Translations under genes and position numbers: made by a program
Notes under the pieces: model-generated
Told to the model about the DNA's origin: nothing
Databases searched by the model: none
Seen by the model: the letters and a program-made list of their open reading frames with translations, nothing else
Origin: Paracoccus shanxieyensis
GTDB lineage: Bacteria; Pseudomonadota; Alphaproteobacteria; Rhodobacterales; Rhodobacteraceae
Direction: 5' to 3'
NCBI RefSeq assembly: GCF_009711265.1
Contig: NZ_WMII01000015.1
Location: forward strand, 1 to 64,000
DNA: 64,000 nucleotides
Shown here: in pieces, positions 5,398 through 14,751 of the stretch
Numbering within the stretch: position 1 is the stretch's first letter
Layout: every line of letters starts with the position of its first letter

Positions 5398-7148
5398 GCA
5401 TGCTTGCCTCTCTGGTGCGAGCCTATGACCGCCTGCCCGACGCCCCGCCCTTTGGCTTTTCGACCGAGAAGATCGGCTTTTGTGTGCTGCTGAACGCCGA
5501 TGGATCGGTCGCCAGTGTCGAGGATTTGCGCGGTGATGACAGGAAGCGCAGCCCGCGGATGCTGCTGGTGCCGCAGGCCGTCAAGCGGACCGCAGGCATT
5601 TCCCCGAACTTCCTGTGGGACAAATCGGCCTATGTGCTTGGTGTGACCGCGGGCGACGGCAAACGAACTGCCGAGGAACATGCCGCCTTCCGCGCGCGTC
5701 ACGCGGAATGGCTTGCCCAGACCGACGATCCCGGCCTGCTGGCTTTTCTGCGCTTCCTGGACGGCTGGACACCGGACGCCTTCGCCGCCCCTGTCTGGCA
5801 TGACGAGATGCGAGACCAGAACATCGTCTTTGCGCTGGCCGATGAATATCGCCAAGGATACCTGCATGACCGCCCGGCCGCCCGCGAATTCTGGCGGCAG
5901 ATCGGCGCCGAGGGCGCATCGGACCCGCAGATCTGTCTGGTCACCGGCGACTCCGGTCCGGTGACGCGGCTGCACCCGTCGATCAAGGGCGTCTGGGGGG
6001 CGCAGTCTTCGGGTGCCAGTCTGGTATCCTTCAACCTTGACGCCTTTACCTCCTACGGTCACGAACAGGGCGACAACGCCCCTGTGTCCGAGGCGGCAGC
6101 CTTTGCCTATGGCGCCGTGCTGAACCGCTATCTCGACAAGGACAGCGGCCATCGCATCCAGATCGGCGATGCCTCGACCGTGTTCTGGGCCGATTGCCAA
6201 GACATGAAGTTGGCAGAGGAGGCGGAATGGTGCTTCGCGGCCTTGCTAGATCCCGCGTCCGAGAATGCCCAGGCGGTCGATGAGGAGAGGCTGAATGTCG
6301 CCAAGCTCCACTCGCGACTTGAGGCGATCCGCAATGGCCAGCGCCTGTCACAGGTCACGCCGGAGCTGGCCGAAGGTGTGCGCTTTCATGTCCTGGGGCT
6401 GGCCCCGAATGCCGCCCGGCTTTCGGTCCGCTTCTATTGGCAGGACGATTTTGGCCGGCTGACCGAGAATTTTCAGCGTTACCTTGACGATACGGCGATA
6501 GATCCGCCGCCGCGCGACGGCTGGCCGGCGCTCTGGCGCTATCTTTTGGAACTGGCGTCGCAGGGCAAGCGCGAGAACGTGCCGCCCCTGATCGCTGGCG
6601 AATGGCTGCGCGCGATCCTGGCCGGCGCGCCCTATCCGCTGACCTTGCTGTCCACTGCGCTGATGCGCATCCGCGCCGACGGCGAAATCAACGCTCTGCG
6701 TTGCGCTATGCTTAAATCCGTACTGATCCGTAACCTGAAGATGGAGGCCCCCGTGGCGCTTGATCCCGCCAACACGAACAAGGGTTATGTCCTTGGGCGG
6801 CTGTTCGCTGTCTATGAAGAAGTGCAGCGTGCCGCGCTTGGCGGCATCAATGCCAGCATCAAGGACAAGTTCTATGGCGCTGCCTCGGCCAGCCCGCAAA
6901 AGGTGTTCCGCACGCTGGATTCCGGCTCGGCCAACCATTTTGGCAAGCTGCGCAAGATCAGCCCCGGACGGGCGGTGAACCTTGAAAAGTTGCTGACTTC
7001 GATCACCGATCTGATGGACCCGGCCGGGGATCCGATCCCCGCCTCGCTGAATGCCGCCGAGCAGGCGCTGTTTGGTATCGGCTATTACCACCAGCGCTCT
7101 GATTTCTTTCGCAAGCAAGATGACAAGACCACCGAGGGATCCAAATGA
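5394..7148 (+). CDS. cas8c: Cas8c (Csd1), large subunit of type I-C Cascade
   Basis: Cas8c recognises the PAM and anchors Cascade on target DNA. The 584-residue protein has the typical N-terminus SMLASLVRAYDRLPDAPPFG, the KRTAGISPNFLWDKSAYVLG segment (about residues 64-83) and ARLSVRFYWQDDFG (about 341-354), all diagnostic of Csd1. The start ATG overlaps the cas5c stop. The C-terminal 131 codons can be translated separately as Cas11c (see separate entry). The stop overlaps the cas7c start by four bases, so the core Cascade genes are translationally coupled. Confidence 0.96.
   Translation: MSMLASLVRAYDRLPDAPPFGFSTEKIGFCVLLNADGSVASVEDLRGDDRKRSPRMLLVPQAVKRTAGISPNFLWDKSAYVLGVTAGDGKRTAEEHAAFRARHAEWLAQTDDPGLLAFLRFLDGWTPDAFAAPVWHDEMRDQNIVFALADEYRQGYLHDRPAAREFWRQIGAEGASDPQICLVTGDSGPVTRLHPSIKGVWGAQSSGASLVSFNLDAFTSYGHEQGDNAPVSEAAAFAYGAVLNRYLDKDSGHRIQIGDASTVFWADCQDMKLAEEAEWCFAALLDPASENAQAVDEERLNVAKLHSRLEAIRNGQRLSQVTPELAEGVRFHVLGLAPNAARLSVRFYWQDDFGRLTENFQRYLDDTAIDPPPRDGWPALWRYLLELASQGKRENVPPLIAGEWLRAILAGAPYPLTLLSTALMRIRADGEINALRCAMLKSVLIRNLKMEAPVALDPANTNKGYVLGRLFAVYEEVQRAALGGINASIKDKFYGAASASPQKVFRTLDSGSANHFGKLRKISPGRAVNLEKLLTSITDLMDPAGDPIPASLNAAEQALFGIGYYHQRSDFFRKQDDKTTEGSK
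6753..7148 (+). CDS. cas11c: Cas11c small subunit from an internal start within cas8c
   Basis: Type I-C systems are known to make the Cas11 small subunit from an internal start inside cas8c. Here a GTG at 6753, in frame with cas8c, is preceded by a perfect GGAGG at 6743-6747 with five bases between. It would give 131 residues beginning ALDPANTNKGYVLGRLFAVY after the start residue, the same region known as Cas11c in other I-C loci. An ATG at 6741 is an alternative but has no ribosome binding site. The product would line the belly of Cascade. Evidence is the sequence signal plus family precedent. Confidence 0.75.
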   Translation: MALDPANTNKGYVLGRLFAVYEEVQRAALGGINASIKDKFYGAASASPQKVFRTLDSGSANHFGKLRKISPGRAVNLEKLLTSITDLMDPAGDPIPASLNAAEQALFGIGYYHQRSDFFRKQDDKTTEGSK

Positions 7149-8095
7149 CCACGCTTTCCCGCCGCCATGACTTCGTGCTGATCTTTGACGTGACCAATGG
7201 CAATCCCAATGGCGACCCCGATGCAGGCAACCTGCCGCGCCTTGACCCCGAGACGAACCACGGTCTGGTCACCGATGTCAGCCTGAAACGCAAGATCCGC
7301 AACTACGTCGATCTTGCGCGCGGGGGTGCCGATGGGCATCACATCTATGTTCAAGAAGGCGCGATCCTGAACGAGAAGCACCGGCAGGCCTATGTCGCGC
7401 TGCGGGGCGACGAAAAGTCAAAGAAAGATGCCAAGCTGAACCCCAAGGACGACGCCGAGGCGACCGCCCTGCGCGACTTCATGTGCGCCAACTTCTTTGA
7501 TGTGCGGACGTTCGGTGCCGTCATGTCGACCGGCATCAATTGCGGTCAGGTCAAGGGCCCGGTGCAGATGACCTTTGCCAATTCGGCCGAACCGGTTCTG
7601 CCCGTCGAGATCTCGATCACCCGCATGGCCGCGACCAACGAGGCCGAGCAGAAGAAGCGCGCCGAAGGGGACGACGGTGATGTGCGCACGGACAACCGCA
7701 CGATGGGGCGCAAACATATCGTGCCCTATGGCCTTTACGTCGCGCATGGCTTCATTTCTGCCAAGTTCGCGGAACGTACGGGCTTTTCCGAAGCCGACCT
7801 GGGCCTTTTGTTCGAGGCGCTGGCGAACATGTTCGAGCATGATCGTTCCGCTGCGCGCGGAGAGATGACCACCCGCAAGCTGATCGTCTTCCGCCATGAC
7901 AGCGCGCTTGGCAACGCCCCTGCGCACAAGCTGTTCGATCTGGTGAAAGTCGGTCGCGCCGTGGACGGAGAGTTCCGCGCTGTGGATGACAAGGGCCTTG
8001 GCAACCTGCCGCCGGCGCGGAAGTTTGCCGATTACAACGTCAGCGTCGACCGCGCCGGACTCCCCGAGGGTGTTGAGCTGCTCGAGTTGCTATAG
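7145..8095 (+). CDS. cas7c: Cas7c (Csd2), crRNA backbone subunit of type I-C Cascade
   Basis: Cas7 subunits polymerise along the crRNA spacer and flip out every sixth base. The 316-residue protein has the Csd2 start LSRRHDFVLIFDVTNGNPNG, TDVSLKRKIRNYV (about residues 40-52), and DVRTFGAVMSTG (about 120-131), diagnostic of the family. Its start overlaps the cas8c stop. It is followed by a GC-rich hairpin (8103-8125) and then 609 bases before cas4, instead of the usual tight junction. That insert holds a promoter, a small gene and a guide-like RNA described below. Confidence 0.97.
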   Translation: MTTLSRRHDFVLIFDVTNGNPNGDPDAGNLPRLDPETNHGLVTDVSLKRKIRNYVDLARGGADGHHIYVQEGAILNEKHRQAYVALRGDEKSKKDAKLNPKDDAEATALRDFMCANFFDVRTFGAVMSTGINCGQVKGPVQMTFANSAEPVLPVEISITRMAATNEAEQKKRAEGDDGDVRTDNRTMGRKHIVPYGLYVAHGFISAKFAERTGFSEADLGLLFEALANMFEHDRSAARGEMTTRKLIVFRHDSALGNAPAHKLFDLVKVGRAVDGEFRAVDDKGLGNLPPARKFADYNVSVDRAGLPEGVELLELL

Positions 8096-8102
8096 CCCAC
8101 TA

Positions 8103-8125
8103 CCCGGCGTCATCGCGATGCCGGG
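8103..8125 (+). terminator. Hairpin just after cas7c, possible weak terminator
   Basis: CCCGGC (8103-8108) pairs with GCCGGG (8120-8125), starting eight bases after the cas7c stop. No run of T follows (ACATTCTATA), so termination would be partial or Rho-dependent. It separates the interference genes from the downstream promoter. Confidence 0.4.
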
Positions 8126-8131
8126 ACATTC

Positions 8132-8145
8132 TATAATCAAACTTC
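8132..8145 (+). promoter_or_regulatory. Candidate promoter (-10 TATAAT) between cas7c and the small gene
   Basis: A perfect TATAAT lies at 8132-8137, so transcription would begin near 8144. The -35 at the usual distance (about 8109-8114) is poor, which suggests a weak or activator-aided promoter. It points toward the hairpin at 8151, the small gene at 8364 and cas4-cas1-cas2. The PAM and protospacer-like site described next cover the predicted start site. Confidence 0.6.
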
Positions 8146-8178
8146 TCTGTAAGTGAACGGTTTGGCTTGTCCAAACCG
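8143..8178 (+). promoter_or_regulatory. Cascade target site: TTC PAM plus protospacer matching the guide at 8630
   Basis: TTC at 8143-8145 is the type I-C PAM and sits directly before TCTGT (8146-8150). Aligned without gaps to the guide starting at 8630, positions 1-5, 8, 10, 11 and 13-18 match, so 14 of the first 18. Mismatches are at 6, 7, 9 and 12; 6 and 12 are bases that Cas7 flips out and Cascade does not read. Beyond position 18 only scattered bases match. Partial, seed-weighted pairing is what allows binding without cutting in known CreA/CreR guides. The site covers the start region of the TATAAT promoter. Confidence 0.8.
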
Positions 8179-8363
8179 TTCACTTAGCATTGTTGACAGC
8201 GCGAGTGAAGCGTGAGAGGGTAATTTCGCGAAACAGAAAGGCCGGGCGCACTGGAATGCACCCGGCCTCTGTCAGCAAGACATGTCTGGCCTGCTCACGT
8301 GGAACTTCAGCATAGCCGGACATGTAATTTCAATCAATCGGGCAAGGCCCGGAAGGAGATGAA
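8144..8363 (+). ncRNA. Structured 5' leader or toxin-RNA candidate upstream of the small gene
   Basis: Between the predicted start (about 8144) and the small gene there are three stem-loops: 8151-8185; GGCCGGG/CCCGGCC (arms 8240-8250 and 8257-8267); and ACATGTC/GACATGT (arms 8280-8290 and 8315-8325, one mismatch). Read on the minus strand, the middle one is followed by TTTCTGTTT and would work as a terminator for leftward transcription. No short frame here has a ribosome binding site. A GTG-started 36-codon frame at 8205 contains AGG, CGA and AGA codons but lacks one too. This may be a CreT-like RNA or simply a leader; the choice cannot be made from sequence. Confidence 0.35.
8151..8185. other. 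15-bp perfect inverted repeat within the Cascade target
   Basis: AAGTGAACGGTTTGG (8151-8165) and its exact complement at 8171-8185 are separated by the loop CTTGT. The sequence after it has no T-tract, so it is not a Rho-independent terminator. In RNA it would be a very stable 5' hairpin of the transcript from about 8144; in DNA it could be an operator. The left arm doubles as the protospacer bases 6-20. It is intact, so something maintains it. Confidence 0.75.
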
Positions 8364-8534
8364 ATGTACGAGATATACTACACCATGGGTAAGGGATACT
8401 GGTGGCGTCTGAAGGCCACCAATGGCGAGATTCTCTGCCATTCCGAGATGTTTACCGCCAAGCAATCTGCGCAAAGCGGAATCGCGGCTGTAAAGCGCAT
8501 TGCGCACGATGCGCTGGTTTACGACCGAACCTGA
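8364..8534 (+). CDS. Small DUF1508/YegP-like protein inside the cas operon
   Basis: This 56-residue gene begins MYEIYYTMGKGYWWRLKATN and continues GEILCHSEMFTAKQSAQSG, then IAAVKRIAHDALVYDRT. The WWRLKATNGEI block, the SE-x-F/Y-x-x-K turn and the GIxxVKR helix are the marks of the DUF1508 (YegP) fold, a short beta-sheet plus helix domain of unknown function. AAGGAG at 8353-8358 sits five bases before the ATG, the best ribosome binding site in the locus. It is a single domain; E. coli YegP has two. It lies behind a promoter targeted by the locus's own guide RNA and ahead of a hairpin at 8567. It could be a toxin, a Cas accessory factor or a passenger. I know of no described role for DUF1508 in type I-C loci. 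Confidence 0.8.
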   Translation: MYEIYYTMGKGYWWRLKATNGEILCHSEMFTAKQSAQSGIAAVKRIAHDALVYDRT

Positions 8535-8566
8535 CCGCCAAATTCTCCGGAGACCGAGAAAGTCTC

Positions 8567-8608
8567 GCCCGCGGCGCTGTCGCGGGCGGTGTCGCCTTTG
8601 TCTTTGTC
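8567..8608 (+). terminator. Probable terminator after the small gene
   Basis: GCCCGCG (8567-8573) and CGCGGGC (8581-8587) form a 7-bp perfect GC stem with a seven-base loop, followed within a few bases by the T-rich run CCTTTGTCTTTGTCT (8595-8609). It lies 33 bases after the small gene's stop. The T-rich part is also the left half of the diverged CRISPR repeat at 8591, so the two signals share bases. Confidence 0.5.
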
Positions 8609-8686
8609 TAAAAAGGCGTGGATAGAAACTCTGTTCGGGATCGGTTTTGGCTTTGGCCAGCGAGGTCAGCCTGTTAGGCTGGCCTC
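8591..8686 (+). ncRNA. CreA/CreR-like guide RNA: diverged CRISPR repeat, guide, closing hairpin
   Basis: GTCGCC (8591-8596) and GGCGTGGATAGAAAC (8615-8629) match the two ends of the array repeat; the second part is 14/15 identical. The repeat stem is kept as CGCCTTT (8593-8599) pairing with AAAGGCG (8612-8618), where the inner C-G pairs of the array repeat have become T-A pairs, and the loop is longer. This is replacement with pairing kept, which implies selection for Cas5c processing. The 32-nt guide (8630-8661) is followed by a 10-bp hairpin with loop TGTTA (8662-8686) at the place of the next repeat. The guide matches the site at 8146 behind a TTC PAM. It ends 18 bases before the cas4 ATG. 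Confidence 0.85.
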
Positions 8687-8704
8687 AATCCTCACTGGTG
8701 CCGT

Positions 8705-9340
8705 ATGTCCGCCCAAGATCGCGAACCCATTCCGCTCTCGGCGCTGCAACATGCGGTCTATTGCCTTCGTCAGGCAGCCCTTATCCATCTTGAGCGGCTC
8801 TGGGCCGAGAACCGCTTTACTGCCGAGGGTGACGTGCTGCATGCCGTCGCCGACAAGGGCGGAAGCCGCAAGGCGCGCGGGGCGCGGAGGGTCATGGCGC
8901 TGCCGCTTGCCTGCCGCCGGCTCAACCTTGCCGGCACCGCCGATCTGGTCGAGTTCATCCCCAGCCCGGATGGCAAAACCGCCTTTCCCATCGAATACAA
9001 GCGCGGCAAGCCCAAACTGCACCGCGCCGATGAGGTGCAGCTTTGCGCCCAAGCGCTGTGTCTGGAAGAGATGACCGGCCGCCCGGTGCCGCAGGGCGCG
9101 CTGTTCTATGCCCAGACCAAGCGCCGGGTCATCGTGCCTTTCGACGCCGAACTGCGCGCGCTGACCGAAAACACCGCTACCGAACTGGCCGAGGTTCTGG
9201 CCAGCCGGCAGACACCGCCCCCGACGCCGCATCGCAGCCGCTGCCGGGCCTGCTCGCTCATTGAGCTTTGTCGCCCCGAGGCGGTCGGCCGGTCCGTGCG
9301 GCAATGGCGCGACCGCATGTTGGCAAAGGCGCTGGAATGA
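8705..9340 (+). CDS. cas4: Cas4 exonuclease, PAM-directed adaptation factor
   Basis: Cas4 trims prespacer ends and makes Cas1-Cas2 insert spacers with the right PAM and orientation. The 211-residue protein has the RecB-type nuclease signature GTADLVEF (about residues 80-87) and FPIEYKRGK (about 98-106). The iron-sulfur cysteines are one in AVYCLRQ (Cys20) and three in CRACSLIELC (about 181-190). The stop overlaps the cas1 start by four bases. Its ATG is 18 bases after the closing hairpin of the guide RNA. If the TATAAT at 8132 serves cas4-cas1-cas2, the guide would also control adaptation. Confidence 0.95.
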   Translation: MSAQDREPIPLSALQHAVYCLRQAALIHLERLWAENRFTAEGDVLHAVADKGGSRKARGARRVMALPLACRRLNLAGTADLVEFIPSPDGKTAFPIEYKRGKPKLHRADEVQLCAQALCLEEMTGRPVPQGALFYAQTKRRVIVPFDAELRALTENTATELAEVLASRQTPPPTPHRSRCRACSLIELCRPEAVGRSVRQWRDRMLAKALE

Positions 9341-10371
9341 AGAAACTGCTGAATACCGTCTATGTCACGACCGAGGGCAGCGCGCTGAAAAAGGACGGCG
9401 AAAACCTGGTGGTCGAGGTCGAGGGCGCCGAAAAGGCCCGCGTTCCCCTGCACATGCTTGCCTCGATCGTAACATTTGGGCCGATCCTGCTGTCGCCGGC
9501 CTTGATCGGCACCTGTGCCGAGCGTGGCATCTCGGTCGTGCTTCTTGATCGGGCCAGCCGGTTCCAGGCCCGGGTCGAAGGCGCGGTTTCGGGCAATGTG
9601 CTGCTGCGTCGCGCGCAATATCGCATTGCCGACGACGCGACCGATGTAGTGCGCGGCATCGTCATGGGCAAGATCGCCAACCAGCGCGCTGTGATCCGGC
9701 GCGCCCTGCGCGATTATGGCAGCGAGATGCAGGCCGAGGCGCGCGACGGGCTTGAGCGGGCCACCGACCGCATGGCGATGATCCTGCGCCGCGTGCAGCT
9801 TTCCGACACCAGCGTGGATCTGTTGCGGGGTTCCGAAGGCGAGGCCGCGACGCTCTATTTCGGCGTGTTCTGCCACCTGATCCGCTCGCCCGATGCTGAG
9901 CTGCGCTGGACCGTCCGCTCGCGCCGGCCGCCGCTTGACCCCATGAACGCGCTGCTGTCCTTTCTTTACACTCTGCTGACGCATGACTGCCGTTCGGCCT
10001 GCGAGGCGGTCGGTCTGGACCCCGCCGTCGGCTTCCTGCACCGTGACCGCCCCGGTCGGCCCAGCCTGGCGCTGGACCTGATGGAGGAGCTGCGTGCGCC
10101 GCTCGCGGACCGTCTGGCGCTGTCGCTGGTCAACCGCCGACAGCTTCGCGCGGCCGATTTCCGCCGCATGGACGGCGGCGCGGTCCTGCTTGGCGACGAT
10201 GCCCGGCGCACCGTGTTGACCGCGTGGCAAGAGCGCAAGAAGGAAGAGCGTCTGCATCCCTTCTTGCAGGAAAAGGCGCCGTTCGGGCTGGTGCCCTATC
10301 TTCAGGCGCAGATGCTGGCGCGCCATCTGCGCGGCGATCTGGACGCCTATCCGCCCTGGTTCTGGAGTTGA
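9337..10371 (+). CDS. cas1: Cas1 spacer integrase, type I-C
   Basis: Cas1 is the catalytic subunit of the Cas1-Cas2 integrase. The 344-residue protein starts [20 protein letters not shown] and has the [18 protein letters not shown] segment (about residues 63-80) and [20 protein letters not shown] (about 94-113). The metal-binding Glu lies in the [18 protein letters not shown] region (about 162-179), and further acidic/His residues occur in [20 protein letters not shown]. The start follows from the ATGA overlap with cas4. One base separates it from cas2. Confidence 0.97.
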
Positions 10372-10372
10372 G

Positions 10373-10663
10373 ATGCTTGTGCTGGTCACCTATGATGTGA
10401 ACACGCTGGACGTGGGCGGCAAGAAGCGATTGCGCCAGGTCGCGCGGGCGTGCGAGGATTACGGTCAGCGGGTGCAGTTCTCGGTCTTCGAGATCGAGGT
10501 GGATCCGGCGCAATGGACCCGCCTGAAGGCGCGCTTTGAGGGGATCATCCGCGCAGAGGTCGACAGCCTTCGCTATTACTACCTCGGCTCCAACTGGTCG
10601 CGCCGGGTCGAGCATGTCGGGGCAAAGCCTGCGGTCGACCTGAATGGCCCGCTGATCCTGTGA
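10373..10663 (+). CDS. cas2: Cas2 integrase partner
   Basis: Cas2 is the small ferredoxin-fold dimer that bridges two Cas1 dimers. The 96-residue protein starts [20 protein letters not shown], the usual Cas2 beta-strand with the conserved Asp in TYDV, and has [20 protein letters not shown] (about 30-49). Length and sequence are standard for type I-C. It is the last gene of the operon and is followed by the array leader. Confidence 0.96.
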
Positions 10664-10850
10664 TTTTCCTGTCCCTGCGAACCTGAAGCGTGTCAACATC
10701 ACCCGCGAGGTTCGCATTCCTATTGTTTTTTGAAATCGTTGGCTTTTGTCTTTATTGCGGATTGAGCGCTTTGGCCCGAACCCAAACCTCGCTCTGTTCG
10801 CATTGCTTGCGAAGATTTTACTATTAAAGCAGTGCGATATAGTAGAGGCC
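10664..10850 (+). promoter_or_regulatory. CRISPR leader
   Basis: The 187 bases between cas2 and the first repeat are AT-rich compared with the surroundings, as leaders usually are. A TATAGT at 10838-10843 lies just before the first repeat and is a candidate -10 for the array transcript, with only a weak -35. The leader side is confirmed by the array itself: repeats near it are identical, while changed and truncated repeats collect at the far end. Confidence 0.75.
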
Positions 10851-13800
10851 GTCGCCCCTTCACGGGGGCGTGGATCGAAACCTGATCGCATCAGGAACAG
10901 ACCGCTTGACGTATCCGTCGCCCCTTCACGGGGGCGTGGATCGAAACATTTGGATGCTGGGCTTTATAGCCATTGCGTCCGTCGCCCCTTCACGGGGGCG
11001 TGGATCGAAACAATGGTCCGCCAGCGCCTTCTACGTCGATCACTGACGTCGCCCCTTCACGGGGGCGTGGATCGAAACCGGTTGCTCCGTCGATCACGAG
11101 TGCCGCGGCGATTGTCGCCCCTTCACGGGGGCGTGGATCGAAACTCCATGGTCTCGAATGCGAGCGACGATTACGCCGGTCGCCCCTTCACGGGGGCGTG
11201 GATCGAAACGCTCATATGATGTTCCGATTATGTTGATGTTTCGTCGCCCCTTCACGGGGGCGTGGATCGAAACTACCGGTCGTTGGGCGGCGAACAAGCG
11301 GATGCTGGTCGCCCCTTCACGGGGGCGTGGATCGAAACCCGGTTGGCGCGCCATCAGATCGCCGCCAGCCCACGTCGCCCCTTCACGGGGGCGTGGATCG
11401 AAACCCTTATATCATCGACATGGCCGGATCGGCGCTTGTCGCCCCTTCACGGGGGCGTGGATCGAAACACTCAAGACATCGGCTATGAGAAGTTCGCCGA
11501 CAGGTCGCCCCTTCACGGGGGCGTGGATCGAAACCAAGCATGGTGCGCCGAACAAGTCTTGCCGATCTTGTCGCCCCTTCACGGGGGCGTGGATCGAAAC
11601 GCCTCCAAACTTGCCGTCGATCCCACTGGTCACATGTCGCCCCTTCACGGGGGCGTGGATCGAAACTCCAAGAGTTTTGCCCACGTCGCGGGGCCTGCGG
11701 TCGCCCCTTCACGGGGGCGTGGATCGAAACACCGAGCGCGGCGAAGCGGCGCGCCAGCTTGATCGTCGCCCCTTCACGGGGGCGTGGATCGAAACCTCGA
11801 AATCGAAGCCGGATCGTCGGGCAAGCCGAAGTCGCCCCTTCACGGGGGCGTGGATCGAAACCCGTAATCTCTTGGACTGAACCGTCCCATTTGATGTCGC
11901 CCCTTCACGGGGGCGTGGATCGAAACGGCTTGGACCAAGCCCGGAAGATGACGACGCAGACGTCGCCCCTTCACGGGGGCGTGGATCGAAACGCATTCGG
12001 ATCTCTCGATTTCATCGCCGGTCAGAGTCGCCCCTTCACGGGGGCGTGGATCGAAACGGAGGATCAGCGAGCATGAATGACCATATTGACGGTCGCCCCT
12101 TCACGGGGGCGTGGATCGAAACCTCGGCGATCGCGAGGCCGACCAGCGCATCAGGTCGCCCCTTCACGGGGGCGTGGATCGAAACCCGAGATCCTGCGCG
12201 ATGTTGACGGTCACGCTCTGGTCGCCCCTTCACGGGGGCGTGGATCGAAACTCGGGGATCTGCACCGGAAAGGTCACCAGCATGAGTCGCCCCTTCACGG
12301 GGGCGTGGATCGAAACGGCAAAACCAGCCGCCAGTTGTTGCGGTCCCGCCAGGTCGCCCCTTCACGGGGGCGTGGATCGAAACTTCCCGGTCAGGGACTC
12401 GATCTTGGCTGTCGCCGCGTCGCCCCTTCACGGGGGCGTGGATCGAAACTTGGCCAGCACATGCTCGGGATAGGCGACGTAAGTCGCCCCTTCACGGGGG
12501 CGTGGATCGAAACTTAAAAGCGGGCCGCTGCATTACTCGGCCTCGCCCGTCGCCCCTTCACGGGGGCGTGGATCGAAACCGCGCACTCGCAGGAGAACGG
12601 GGATGAGCGACAAGTCGCCCCTTCACGGGGGCGTGGATCGAAACAGACCATCCCAGGCACGGGTCATATCGCCGGTGAAGTCGCCCCTTCACGGGGGCGT
12701 GGATCGAAACACTTGATCGCGCCGGATGGTCATTTCTCCGGGCAGGTCGCCCCTTCACGGGGGCGTGGATCGAAACTGCCTAGCCCCAGTCACCCCAATG
12801 GGAGTGACCTGTCGCCCCTTCACGGGGGCGTGGATCGAAACAAGTCAAGCATCTTGAAGAGATAGGTGGAGATAGTCGCCCCTTCACGGGGGCGTGGATC
12901 GAAACTCGTCTGCAGACAGCGAGCGATTGCCCCACAAACGAGTCGCCCCTTCACGGGGGCGTGGATCGAAACCAGCCCACCACGCCGTCGAAATACTTCA
13001 CCATGTGTCGCCCCTTCACGGGGGCGTGGATCGAAACCGGGCCATAGACCCGGACCGCGCCAAGCAGCGCCGTCGCCCCTTCACGGGGGCGTGGATCGAA
13101 ACAGCGGCAGCCCGACGCCCGCAGTCACGCGCACGCTGTCGCCCCTTCACGGGGGCGTGGATCGAAACTCCATGTTGCCCAAGAGGGATTTGGCCCACCC
13201 GGTCGTCGCCCCTTCACGGGGGCGTGGATCGAAACCCACCATCGCCACCGCCGAATGAGCCGTCGAGCTTGTCGCCCCTTCACGGGGGCGTGGATCGAAA
13301 CGCTCAATTTCCAGCGGTCGCGCTCAGCGTCGCGCTGTCGCCCCTTCACGGGGGCGTGGATCGAAACGCTCTACCGGCAGGTAGATGAGGCCGGGGTCCA
13401 GGTCGCCCCTTCACGGGGGCGTGGATCGAAACTCGAGGTCGACGCTGATCGAACCGGCCTTGCCGAAGTCGCCCCTTCACGGGGGCGTGGATCGAAACTC
13501 ATGAATACACCGCTTGAGCCGTCTCTGGCCAGGTCGCCCCTTCACGGGGGCGTGGATCGAAACGCTCAGGCCGGAGTGCTGGCGGAACACGTCGCTGGTC
13601 GCCCCTTCACGGGGGCGTGGATCGAAACCAGACTCCCTATGGCCTCTGGTGCCTCAAGAAGGGGTCGCCCCTTCACGGGGGCGTGGATCGAAACTCCCCG
13701 GTCACGCGCTTCAGCGTGGCGGCACGTCAAGTCGCCCCTTCACGGGGGCGTGGATCGAAACTCGCCCATCAGATCGCCGAAGGACCGAAGCGCGCCGTCG

Positions 13801-14751
13801 CCCCTTCACGGGGGCGTGGATCGAAACTTTTCGTTCTTGGTGACATTGTTGCGGGTCATCAGGTCGCCCCTTCACGGGGGCGTGGATCGAAACGGACCAT
13901 AAGCGCGCGCATACACATAGGGCGTCGTCGCCCCTTCACGGGGGCGTGGATCGAAACGAGACCCTTTGCGCCAAGTCGCGCGTTAGCGCAGGTCGCCCCT
14001 TCACGGGGGCGTGGATCGAAACCAGCTGATCATGGCAGATCCGCCGTGGCAGTTCGCGTCGCGCCTTCACGGGGGCGTGGATCGAAACCGTCCCACCTGC
14101 GGGATGGCGACGTGCGCGAAGACGTCGCGCCTTCACGGGGGCGTGGATCGAAACTTCCAAATGCGAAGCTGGTTGGCATCCTTCCCGTGGTCGCGCCTTC
14201 ACGGGGGCGTGGATCGAAACCGTGTGCGGCTTGATGTGTTCGCGAACGCCAAGACGTCGCGCCTTCACGGGGGCGTGGATCGAAACGGCGATGCCTCGCG
14301 AAGCCGCCGATAGAACGCCAGGTCGCGCCTTCACGGGGGCGTGGATCGAAACTCATGCACGGCCCCACAGGCGGTGCGGGGCAGACGGGTCGCCCCTTCA
14401 CGGGGGCGTGGATCGGAACATGGACCCGTTGACGCGCTAATAGCCGACAAGGGCAAGTCGCCCCTTCACGGGGGCGTGGATCGAAACGAACCAGACCCAA
14501 TATAACAACTGGGAGAAAGGGTCGTCGCCCCTTCACGGGGGCGTGGATCGAAACCAGCTGGCGCTGTCCGGAGACAGCACGCACCTCTCGTCGCCCCTTC
14601 ACGGGGGCGTGGATCGAAACTTGGTTTTCATCAGCGCCTTGGTCTGCCCGTAGACGGTCGCCCCTTCACGGGGGCGTGGATCGAAACGGCAAAACGCTGG
14701 AGGAAGATACCGGTCGTTATAGTCGCCCCCTCACGGGGCCTTGGATGAAAC
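10851..14751 (+). CRISPR. CRISPR array, type I-C: 60 repeats of 31 nt, 59 spacers
   Basis: The repeat begins GTCGCCCCTTCACG and ends GGCGTGGATCGAAAC, 31 nt in all; type I-C repeats are often 32. I count 60 repeats and 59 spacers of about 32-37 nt (repeat starts 63-67 bases apart). Repeat 1 is at 10851-10881. Repeats 50-54 (starting 14058, 14124, 14190, 14256, 14322) share a C-to-G change that makes GTCGCGCC. Repeat 55 (14389) ends GATCGGAAC. The last (14722-14751) is degenerate: CCTTGGATGAAAC. The changed repeats lie at the end away from cas2, so the leader is on the left. The hairpin CGCCCC/GGGGCG is the Cas5c site. Confidence 0.98.

Follow-up and report, generated by a model that had tools for sequence, protein, structure and literature searches.

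Why should a single CRISPR repeat, followed by one spacer-like guide, lie between cas7c and cas4 and away from the CRISPR array? The question is raised by a type I-C locus of Paracoccus shanxieyensis, which was analyzed within a stretch of 64,000 nucleotides (the window). The original prediction was that the repeat and its guide form a regulatory element. Judged from sequence, the most likely answer is that the lone altered repeat makes a guide RNA which directs Cascade to keep the neighbouring DUF1508 gene off. We put the probability that the element is a creA-like gene of the type I-C system, through which Cascade would repress DUF1508 in a manner resembling CreTA and CrePA, at roughly three in four.

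The gap between cas7c and cas4

The type I-C locus of the window comprises cas3 (2278), cas5c (4618), cas8c (5286), cas7c, cas4, cas1 and cas2 (to 10663), all of which are open frames with matches to their families, and its CRISPR array begins at 10851. The cas7c-cas4 gap measures 613 nt in the window versus 6 to 46 nt in loci L014 to L038 other than L031 (by tblastn ends). In L014 and L015, two close relatives without the cassette, the gap is 9 and 33 nt. The features of the gap and its neighbours are listed below.

7145 to 8095, plus strand: cas7c, the upstream neighbour (PADLOC Cas7c, E 8.6e-116); in most relatives cas4 lies almost directly 3' of it
8132 to 8137, plus strand: TATAAT, candidate -10 element just upstream of the target site (from the sequence)
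8143 to 8145, plus strand: TTC, the PAM of the predicted target (from the sequence; TTC is the I-C PAM)
8146 to 8179, plus strand: predicted protospacer of the guide; of positions 1 to 18, matches at 1-5, 8, 10, 11 and 13-18 and mismatches at 6, 7, 9 and 12
8151 to 8185, arms 8151-8165 and 8171-8185: perfect 15-bp inverted repeat overlapping the protospacer (sequence and self-match)
8193 to 8198, plus strand: TTGACA, candidate -35 element of the DUF1508 transcript (by eye)
8240 to 8325, plus strand: structured leader RNA with two hairpins (8240-8267; 8280-8290 with 8315-8325), from covariation over four loci and a fold z of -5.6
8364 to 8534, plus strand: gene for a 56-aa single-domain DUF1508 (YegP/UPF0339-like) protein (Pfam PF07411, E 1.9e-15)
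8567 to 8587, plus strand: terminator-like hairpin after DUF1508 (stem 8567-8572/8582-8587), with overlapping terminator-like predictions at 8571-8597
8591 to 8629, plus strand: psi-repeat, a diverged type I-C repeat (stem 8593-8599/8612-8618, 11-nt handle 8619-8629)
8630 to 8661, plus strand: guide (psi-spacer) of 32 nt, from target matching
8662 to 8686, plus strand: 3' hairpin GAGGTCAGCC/GGCTGGCCTC, from the fold
8705 to 9340, plus strand: cas4, the downstream neighbour (PADLOC Cas4c, E 6.2e-81)

TTC has been reported as the I-C PAM in Xanthomonas oryzae (PMC8406640). The consensus scan called no promoter on the plus strand, and an Rfam search of 8000 to 11200 returned mir-679, below threshold, as its sole match. 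The 15-bp inverted repeat at the protospacer is a candidate operator or, alternatively, a candidate cas7 terminator. The 3' hairpin could give the RNA a defined 3' end or, as we infer, could stand in for the 3' stem-loop of an I-C crRNA. At the other side of the locus, minus-strand frames at 855 to 1977 that resemble a phage tail protein (E 1.4e-51) and, more weakly, a tape-measure protein (E 1.7e-6) end just upstream of cas3, which suggests a prophage remnant at this border.

The solitary repeat and its fold

The handle of the repeat at 8591 to 8629 is TGGATAGAAAC, and 14 of the 15 bases of GGCGTGGATAGAAAC (8615 to 8629) agree with the array repeat. Matches with at most one mismatch numbered 60 in the 64 kb; 59 of them lie inside the array (10867 to 14687) and the other one is the psi-repeat, where 0.05 would be expected by chance. 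The proposal that the gap holds a diverged array repeat with a well-kept 3' part was thus borne out. As in CreA-type elements, an ectopic degenerate copy of the cognate CRISPR repeat lies near the cas genes. Within the array itself, a block of repeats at about 14058 to 14343 has the variant start GTCGCGCC, and the last repeat (at about 14722) is degenerate.

The psi-repeat stem pairs CGCCTTT (8593 to 8599) with AAAGGCG (8612 to 8618), giving 7 bp around a 12-nt loop. The stem is thus rebuilt with its pairing kept, as had been proposed. Since a stem of at least 7 bp was found at 62 of 4000 random positions in eight loci, the stem alone is modest evidence. Both the repeat stem and the 3' hairpin appear in the minimum-energy fold of 8591 to 8690 (z -3.8), in which the handle also pairs with the first guide bases. 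The predicted succession of a 32-nt guide and a hairpin at 8662 to 8686 is present, and the fold includes that hairpin.

The guide matches a site 5' of the DUF1508 gene

Among the TTC-flanked sites within 700 nt, the guide fits best at one that starts at 8146; the DUF1508 gene lies just 3' of this site, and the handle 474 nt downstream. The original prediction had not located a target. Since the predicted target is the region 5' of the adjacent DUF1508 gene and not a cas promoter, the element appears CreA-like rather than CreR-like. The guide matches the 8146 site with a seed score of 8/10 and at 5/5 of positions 13 to 17, a result that was equalled by none of 1000 shuffled guides on the same stretch, and the site is the best match also without the PAM requirement. 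The seed mismatches fall at positions 7 and 9, and positions 13 to 18 are fully paired. Despite these two mismatches, a PAM-flanked, partly complementary site lies beside the presumed regulated gene, as it does in CreA-type elements. In the single I-F CreA for which mutations were tested, positions 7 to 9 proved critical (PMC10097628).

When the whole 4.33-Mb genome was searched for the TTC-plus-guide pattern with at most three mismatches, the matches were the 8146 target and the guide itself, with no better target elsewhere; a backward control pattern also had one match, so this search alone proves nothing. No TTC site close to the start of cas3 or cas5 in the window reached the score of 8146. 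Guide matches in the 64 kb by uninterrupted seed alone (for example at 669 and 18554) had no TTC PAM and were rejected.

The cassette is found in four type I-C loci

The cassette is also present in the cas7-cas4 gap of Rhodobacter viridis (L031) and of genome G120, and between cas7 and cas1 in genome G025. Based on the identical DUF1508 proteins P0010 and P0058, we took G120 for Paracoccus yeei and G025 for P. contaminans. No cas4 was found near the P. contaminans cassette in 19 kb. The order is the same in all four cassettes: cas7 stop, TTC and protospacer, leader hairpins, DUF1508, psi-repeat, guide and hairpin.

Conservation of the handle and stem in related I-C loci had been named as a check on the prediction, and the prediction held: all four cassettes retain a handle, in two of them with a base changed, and a stem adjoins it in three. 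Beside the handle, the stem scan found an altered stem in R. viridis (CGTCTC/GAGACG) and in P. yeei (CGCCCTT/AGGGGCG) and none of at least 4 bp in P. contaminans. The minimum-energy folds of the window and P. yeei include the repeat stem; those of R. viridis and P. contaminans lack it. Hairpins of different sequence occupy the position of the 3' hairpin in the three other cassettes. The inverted repeat at the protospacer is clear in the window and in R. viridis, with other letters in the same layout, and is weaker by eye in the other two. By eye, TTGACA follows the protospacer start by 42 to 48 nt in three cassettes (47 in the window, 48 in R. viridis, 42 in P. yeei) and was not seen at that spacing in P. 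contaminans.

Scored against its own target, the guide reached a seed score of 8/10 in the window, 10/10 in R. viridis, 9/10 in P. yeei and 8/10 in P. contaminans, and the numbers of shuffled guides that matched these scores were 0, 0, 0 and 3 per 1000, respectively. Cross scores among the four cassettes ranged from 5 to 8. The R. viridis and P. yeei guides fit their own targets best. On the window target, the R. viridis guide scored 8, the same as the guide of the window itself; likewise, the P. contaminans guide reached 8 on the P. yeei target, as it did on its own. Co-variation of guide and target within the four cassettes, as read from the sequences, is not clean. Because of the tied cross scores, the stems missing in two folds and the match of the backward control, our confidence in the creA-like reading was slightly lowered and the weight given to decay (see below) slightly raised.

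In loci L112 and L113, cas4, cas1 and cas2 (where present) are 86 to 94% identical to those of the window and cas3 and cas5 69 to 79%, whereas cas7 is only about 60% and cas8 50 to 58% identical. The effector part of these loci thus looks swapped, with the cassette and the adaptation genes kept together.

The DUF1508 protein and the leader RNA

The product of the gene in the cassette has one DUF1508 domain only, and its sequence relates it to structures of the UPF0339 group, among them yegP 2K8E and 6Q2Z. Among the four cassettes, the proteins share 55 to 70% amino acid identity and codon changes are mostly at third positions (6, 13 and 32 differences at codon positions 1, 2 and 3 between the window and R. 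viridis), so the protein appears to be selected. A profile search found 6214 DUF1508 proteins among 7998 scored candidates. The 120 matches listed are for the most part about 56 aa long with this single domain, and wherever the organism is named it is an alphaproteobacterium; because such members are common, the family is not confined to CRISPR loci. A DUF1508 match was found in 4 of 125 Paracoccus genomes: three have it in this cassette beside cas7, and in the fourth (G121) a 249-aa frame contains a partial match. Of these 125 genomes, 18 gave a Cas7c match. A search of the phage collection for this DUF1508 found none. The plasmid collection gave two Leptospira records at 44%, and the viral contigs gave one at 46%.

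The leader RNA co-varies over the four loci. With the structure of the window as the reference, both partners differ in 11 of the 21 pairs, and 91.7% of cells were paired versus 80.2% when shuffled, a level reached by 0 of 500 shuffles; the count of further pair types was reached by 62 of 500. A model of the leader, applied with strict filters to overlapping draws of 394 and 390 genomes, found no further cassette. Weak matches of this model in G320, G499 and G134 were rejected, none having DUF1508 in its 3 kb, and the one in G320 lies between transporter genes and resembles a terminator hairpin by eye. A single handle-like string, at 483, was seen in G134 (L151).

Similar modules in other type I-C loci

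With Cas7c as the bait, the best 80 of 103 confirmed loci were taken, and these were combined with the window and four further stretches to give a set of 85. The 85 stretches were scanned for lone handles (GG[A/G]TNGAAAC) outside arrays. The scan gave 53 lone handles, of which 48 had a usable guide; the other five, with a cut or masked guide, were left out. A TTC target with a seed score of at least 8 was found within 700 nt for 23 of the 48, and the other 25 scored 5 to 7. The best PAM-free match was also at TTC in 22 of the 23. L070 (8/10), whose PAM-free best match was not at TTC, was dropped, and 22 modules were kept. As a control, 21 of 791 array spacers of the same loci scored at least 8. 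In a first target test of 18 hand-picked elements, 17 passed and one failed; the element at 7503 of L046 failed with a score of 6/10, which was matched by 171 of 1000 shuffles.

Guide and target agree at positions 1-5 and 7-11 in 19 to 22 of the 22 modules, which is partly by construction because the modules were chosen by seed score. At positions not used in the selection, matches number 18, 17, 17 and 15 at positions 13 to 16 and 10 at position 17. Positions 6, 12 and 18 match in 5, 6 and 5 modules, which is at chance level. Scoring without selection (18 positions, no PAM rule) brought 22 of the 48 guides to at least 13, with 16 of those at TTC. Among these 22, position 6 matched in 9 and position 12 in 6, versus 16 to 22 at the other positions up to 16; positions 17 and 18 matched in 13 and 10, so the dip at 18 is not clean in this set. 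The pairing of crRNA with DNA in Cascade leaves every sixth base unpaired and gives dips there, and the dips at 6, 12 and 18 thus fit a Cascade R-loop. Bases 6 and 12 are those named as unpaired in PMC8501985.

Among the 18 modules without DUF1508, 11 have a small ORF preceded by a Shine-Dalgarno sequence, and three more (L016, L017 and L080) have one by eye. The small ORFs of these 11 modules were taken for the regulated gene. The original reading of the element as a regulatory guide and not a stray spacer is supported in the sequence data by the PAM-flanked partial target nearby, by the occurrence of the cassette in three further I-C loci where each guide has a matching target of its own, and by the recurrence of the same logic in 18 further modules.

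The modules differ in what lies beside the guide. In the cas3-cas5 gaps of L018 (7446), L019 (7345), L022 (7435) and L026 (7363), a CreA-like guide accompanies a conserved 31-aa ORF with a PP...LE..LEC.A.ALR..LKL-like core; its product appears to be a small peptide, amphipathic or hydrophobic, under repression by Cascade, and in L018 and L026 a TTGACA abuts the target PAM. A second CreA-guarded peptide family, of about 26 to 32 aa and ending in PP, occurs on the minus strand of the cas3-cas5 gaps of L016, L017, L030 and L032, divergent from the cas genes, and in L113 (13747). Genome G025 carries two modules, a short-peptide one and the DUF1508 cassette. CreA-like guides lie beside other small ORFs in L037 (7539), L053 (7516), L065 (7382), L069 (7428) and L080; the small ORFs of L037, L053, L069 and L080 show a hydrophobic stretch by eye, and L069 is from Achromobacter, which is not alphaproteobacterial. 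In L054 (8161) and L055 (8180), both from the cas5-cas8 gap of Camelimonas, and in L046 and L090, a CreA-like guide and a TTC target are found without a convincing small protein, and an RNA toxin or a CreR is possible there.

The cas3-cas5 gaps of L025, L028, L031, L034, L035 and L046 hold a putative gene for a protein of about 100 aa that resembles a GIY-YIG nuclease by eye. The L034 protein had no Pfam match, and no lone handle with a good target was found beside such a gene, except for a separate module in L046. In eight loci (the window, L016, L019, L022, L026, L030, L031 and L053), the CreA handle is GGATAGAAAC versus GGATCGAAAC in the cognate array, as if the change from GGATCGAAAC to GGATAGAAAC were favoured or inherited.

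Proposed mechanism

We propose that Cas5c would cleave the transcript below the stem of the repeat, as crRNA processing in I-C is done by Cas5 (PMC10651486). The product would be a crRNA-like RNA consisting of the handle UGGAUAGAAAC, the 32-nt guide and the 3' hairpin. Cascade (Cas5c-Cas8c-Cas7c) carrying this guide would bind the TTC-flanked site at 8146 to 8179 by partial pairing (positions 1-5, 8, 10-11 and 13-18), and because the pairing is too short, cleavage by Cas3 would not be expected at 8146. The bound Cascade would presumably block transcription of DUF1508. In I-F CreTA, the start site is upstream of the CreA target (PMC10097628), and a road-block at 8146 thus has a precedent. Loss or saturation of Cascade, or its inhibition (by an anti-CRISPR, for instance), would release the small protein together with the structured leader RNA. 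The DUF1508 protein may then act as a toxin, an alarm or a second-line defence; the idea of a toxin comes by analogy, and the literature consulted does not describe DUF1508 proteins of this single-domain kind as toxic.

A broader proposal, to which we give somewhat less than an even chance, is that cassettes of small genes under repression by Cascade are frequent in the cas operon gaps of I-C systems, and that the DUF1508 cassette turns the loss or inhibition of Cascade into the release of DUF1508 and the leader RNA. If this is true, the uncharacterised DUF1508 family would gain a role in CRISPR backup defence, and a widespread small protein family of unknown function would be tied to CRISPR inhibition. 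RNA-guided repression by Cascade would extend to I-C, where Cas5c, not Cas6, must make the guide. Each of the 22 I-C modules, including the 18 with other or no small ORFs, comes with a named guide, PAM and target for a reporter assay, and the matching pattern over these natural guide-target pairs may be a record of the pairing that a Cascade repressor needs.

Alternative explanations

The regulated product could be an RNA toxin, as in CreTA, formed by the structured leader with the DUF1508 ORF incidental. The structure of the leader and its co-variation across the four loci are what a functional RNA would show, but a structured 5' UTR accounts for the leader equally well, and the identity and third-position changes of the ORF suggest that its protein is selected; we consider this explanation unlikely. 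The guide could also be an autoregulator of the CreR type, controlling the cas genes via transcription that runs from 8100-8200 on into cas4-cas1-cas2. CreRs have been reported for I-B, I-E and V-A (PMC13131331), the target lies directly after cas7c and upstream of cas4, cas1 and cas2, and read-through into these adaptation genes is possible because cas4 follows cas7 within about 6 to 46 nt in close relatives without the cassette. However, the nearest downstream gene is DUF1508, with hairpins before and after the guide; no TTC site near the cas3 or cas5 start or, within three mismatches, genome-wide scored as well; and P. contaminans keeps the cassette though no cas4 was found in 19 kb. Autoregulation of cas genes therefore seems rather improbable.

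The element might instead be a decayed remnant, either an ectopic repeat-spacer unit that recombination of the array left behind or a creA that is losing its function. The seed mismatches at 7 and 9 would agree with decay, as would the equal fit of the R. viridis guide and the window's own guide to the window target. The complete pairing at 13 to 18, the cassette with a matching pair in four loci, and the intact frames of all seven cas genes with matches to their families argue against it, and we regard decay as very improbable. Solitary I-C repeats also act in phages as decoys that jam Cascade, as with RacrIC1 (PMC10651486), but this element is inside the cas operon with a PAM-flanked target adjoining, and its DUF1508 is absent from the phage records; that it is a phage decoy of this kind is hardly credible. 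Repression of DUF1508 by a creA-like guide remains our preferred reading.

Relation to known systems

Shmakov et al. 2023 (NAR 51:8150) reportedly made a systematic prediction of regulatory crRNA-like guides from standalone repeats across type I, some aimed at cargo genes in CRISPR loci. The I-C elements described here may already be among those predictions. The literature searched, short of Shmakov et al. and the 2023 work on CreR, contained no report of an I-C CreA and no link between DUF1508 and CRISPR, and an earlier description may exist in print.

CreTA has been described for I-B (PMC8501985) and I-F (PMC10097628). The present element shares with it a degenerate repeat (PMC8501985, PMC10097628, PMC9458426), pairing like that of the I-B cases at 1-5 and 7-11 with a TTC PAM (PMC8501985), and, as in I-F, a place in a cas intergenic gap (PMC10097628). 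It differs in that CreT is an RNA toxin, whereas the presumed regulated gene here, DUF1508, codes for a protein; in that earlier creTA modules lie around cas6 (PMC10097628), whereas I-C processes with Cas5 (PMC10651486); and in that the two-repeat creA is commoner (PMC8501985), whereas one repeat and a hairpin are found here. With CreR, the element shares a crRNA-like guide and, as predicted here, Cascade as the repressor (PMC12737573, PMC13131331), but CreR targets cas promoters and the predicted target here is 5' of DUF1508. RacrIC1, from a prophage, is likewise a solitary I-C repeat; in contrast, it is viral and inhibits I-C interference, and its description in PMC10651486 concerns no guide-target pair.

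A close parallel is CrePA, in which a CRISPR-repressed protein toxin is paired with a CreA RNA (PMC12737573). Both have a crRNA-like RNA and a Cascade site by a neighbouring protein-coding gene (RNA and site both predicted here), and derepression would be expected on inhibition of Cascade (PMC12737573). As in CrePA, the gene encodes a small protein; the DUF1508 ORF is kept in the four cassettes, and its position suggests that it is the regulated gene. According to the review, CreP typically bears a KilA-N domain (PMC12737573), whereas Pfam finds DUF1508 only in the 56-aa protein here, and the subtype I-C and the conserved leader RNA are further differences. Relative to known CreA guides, the sequences point to two aspects that may be new, the subtype I-C and the DUF1508 cargo, within the already known principle of repression by Cascade.
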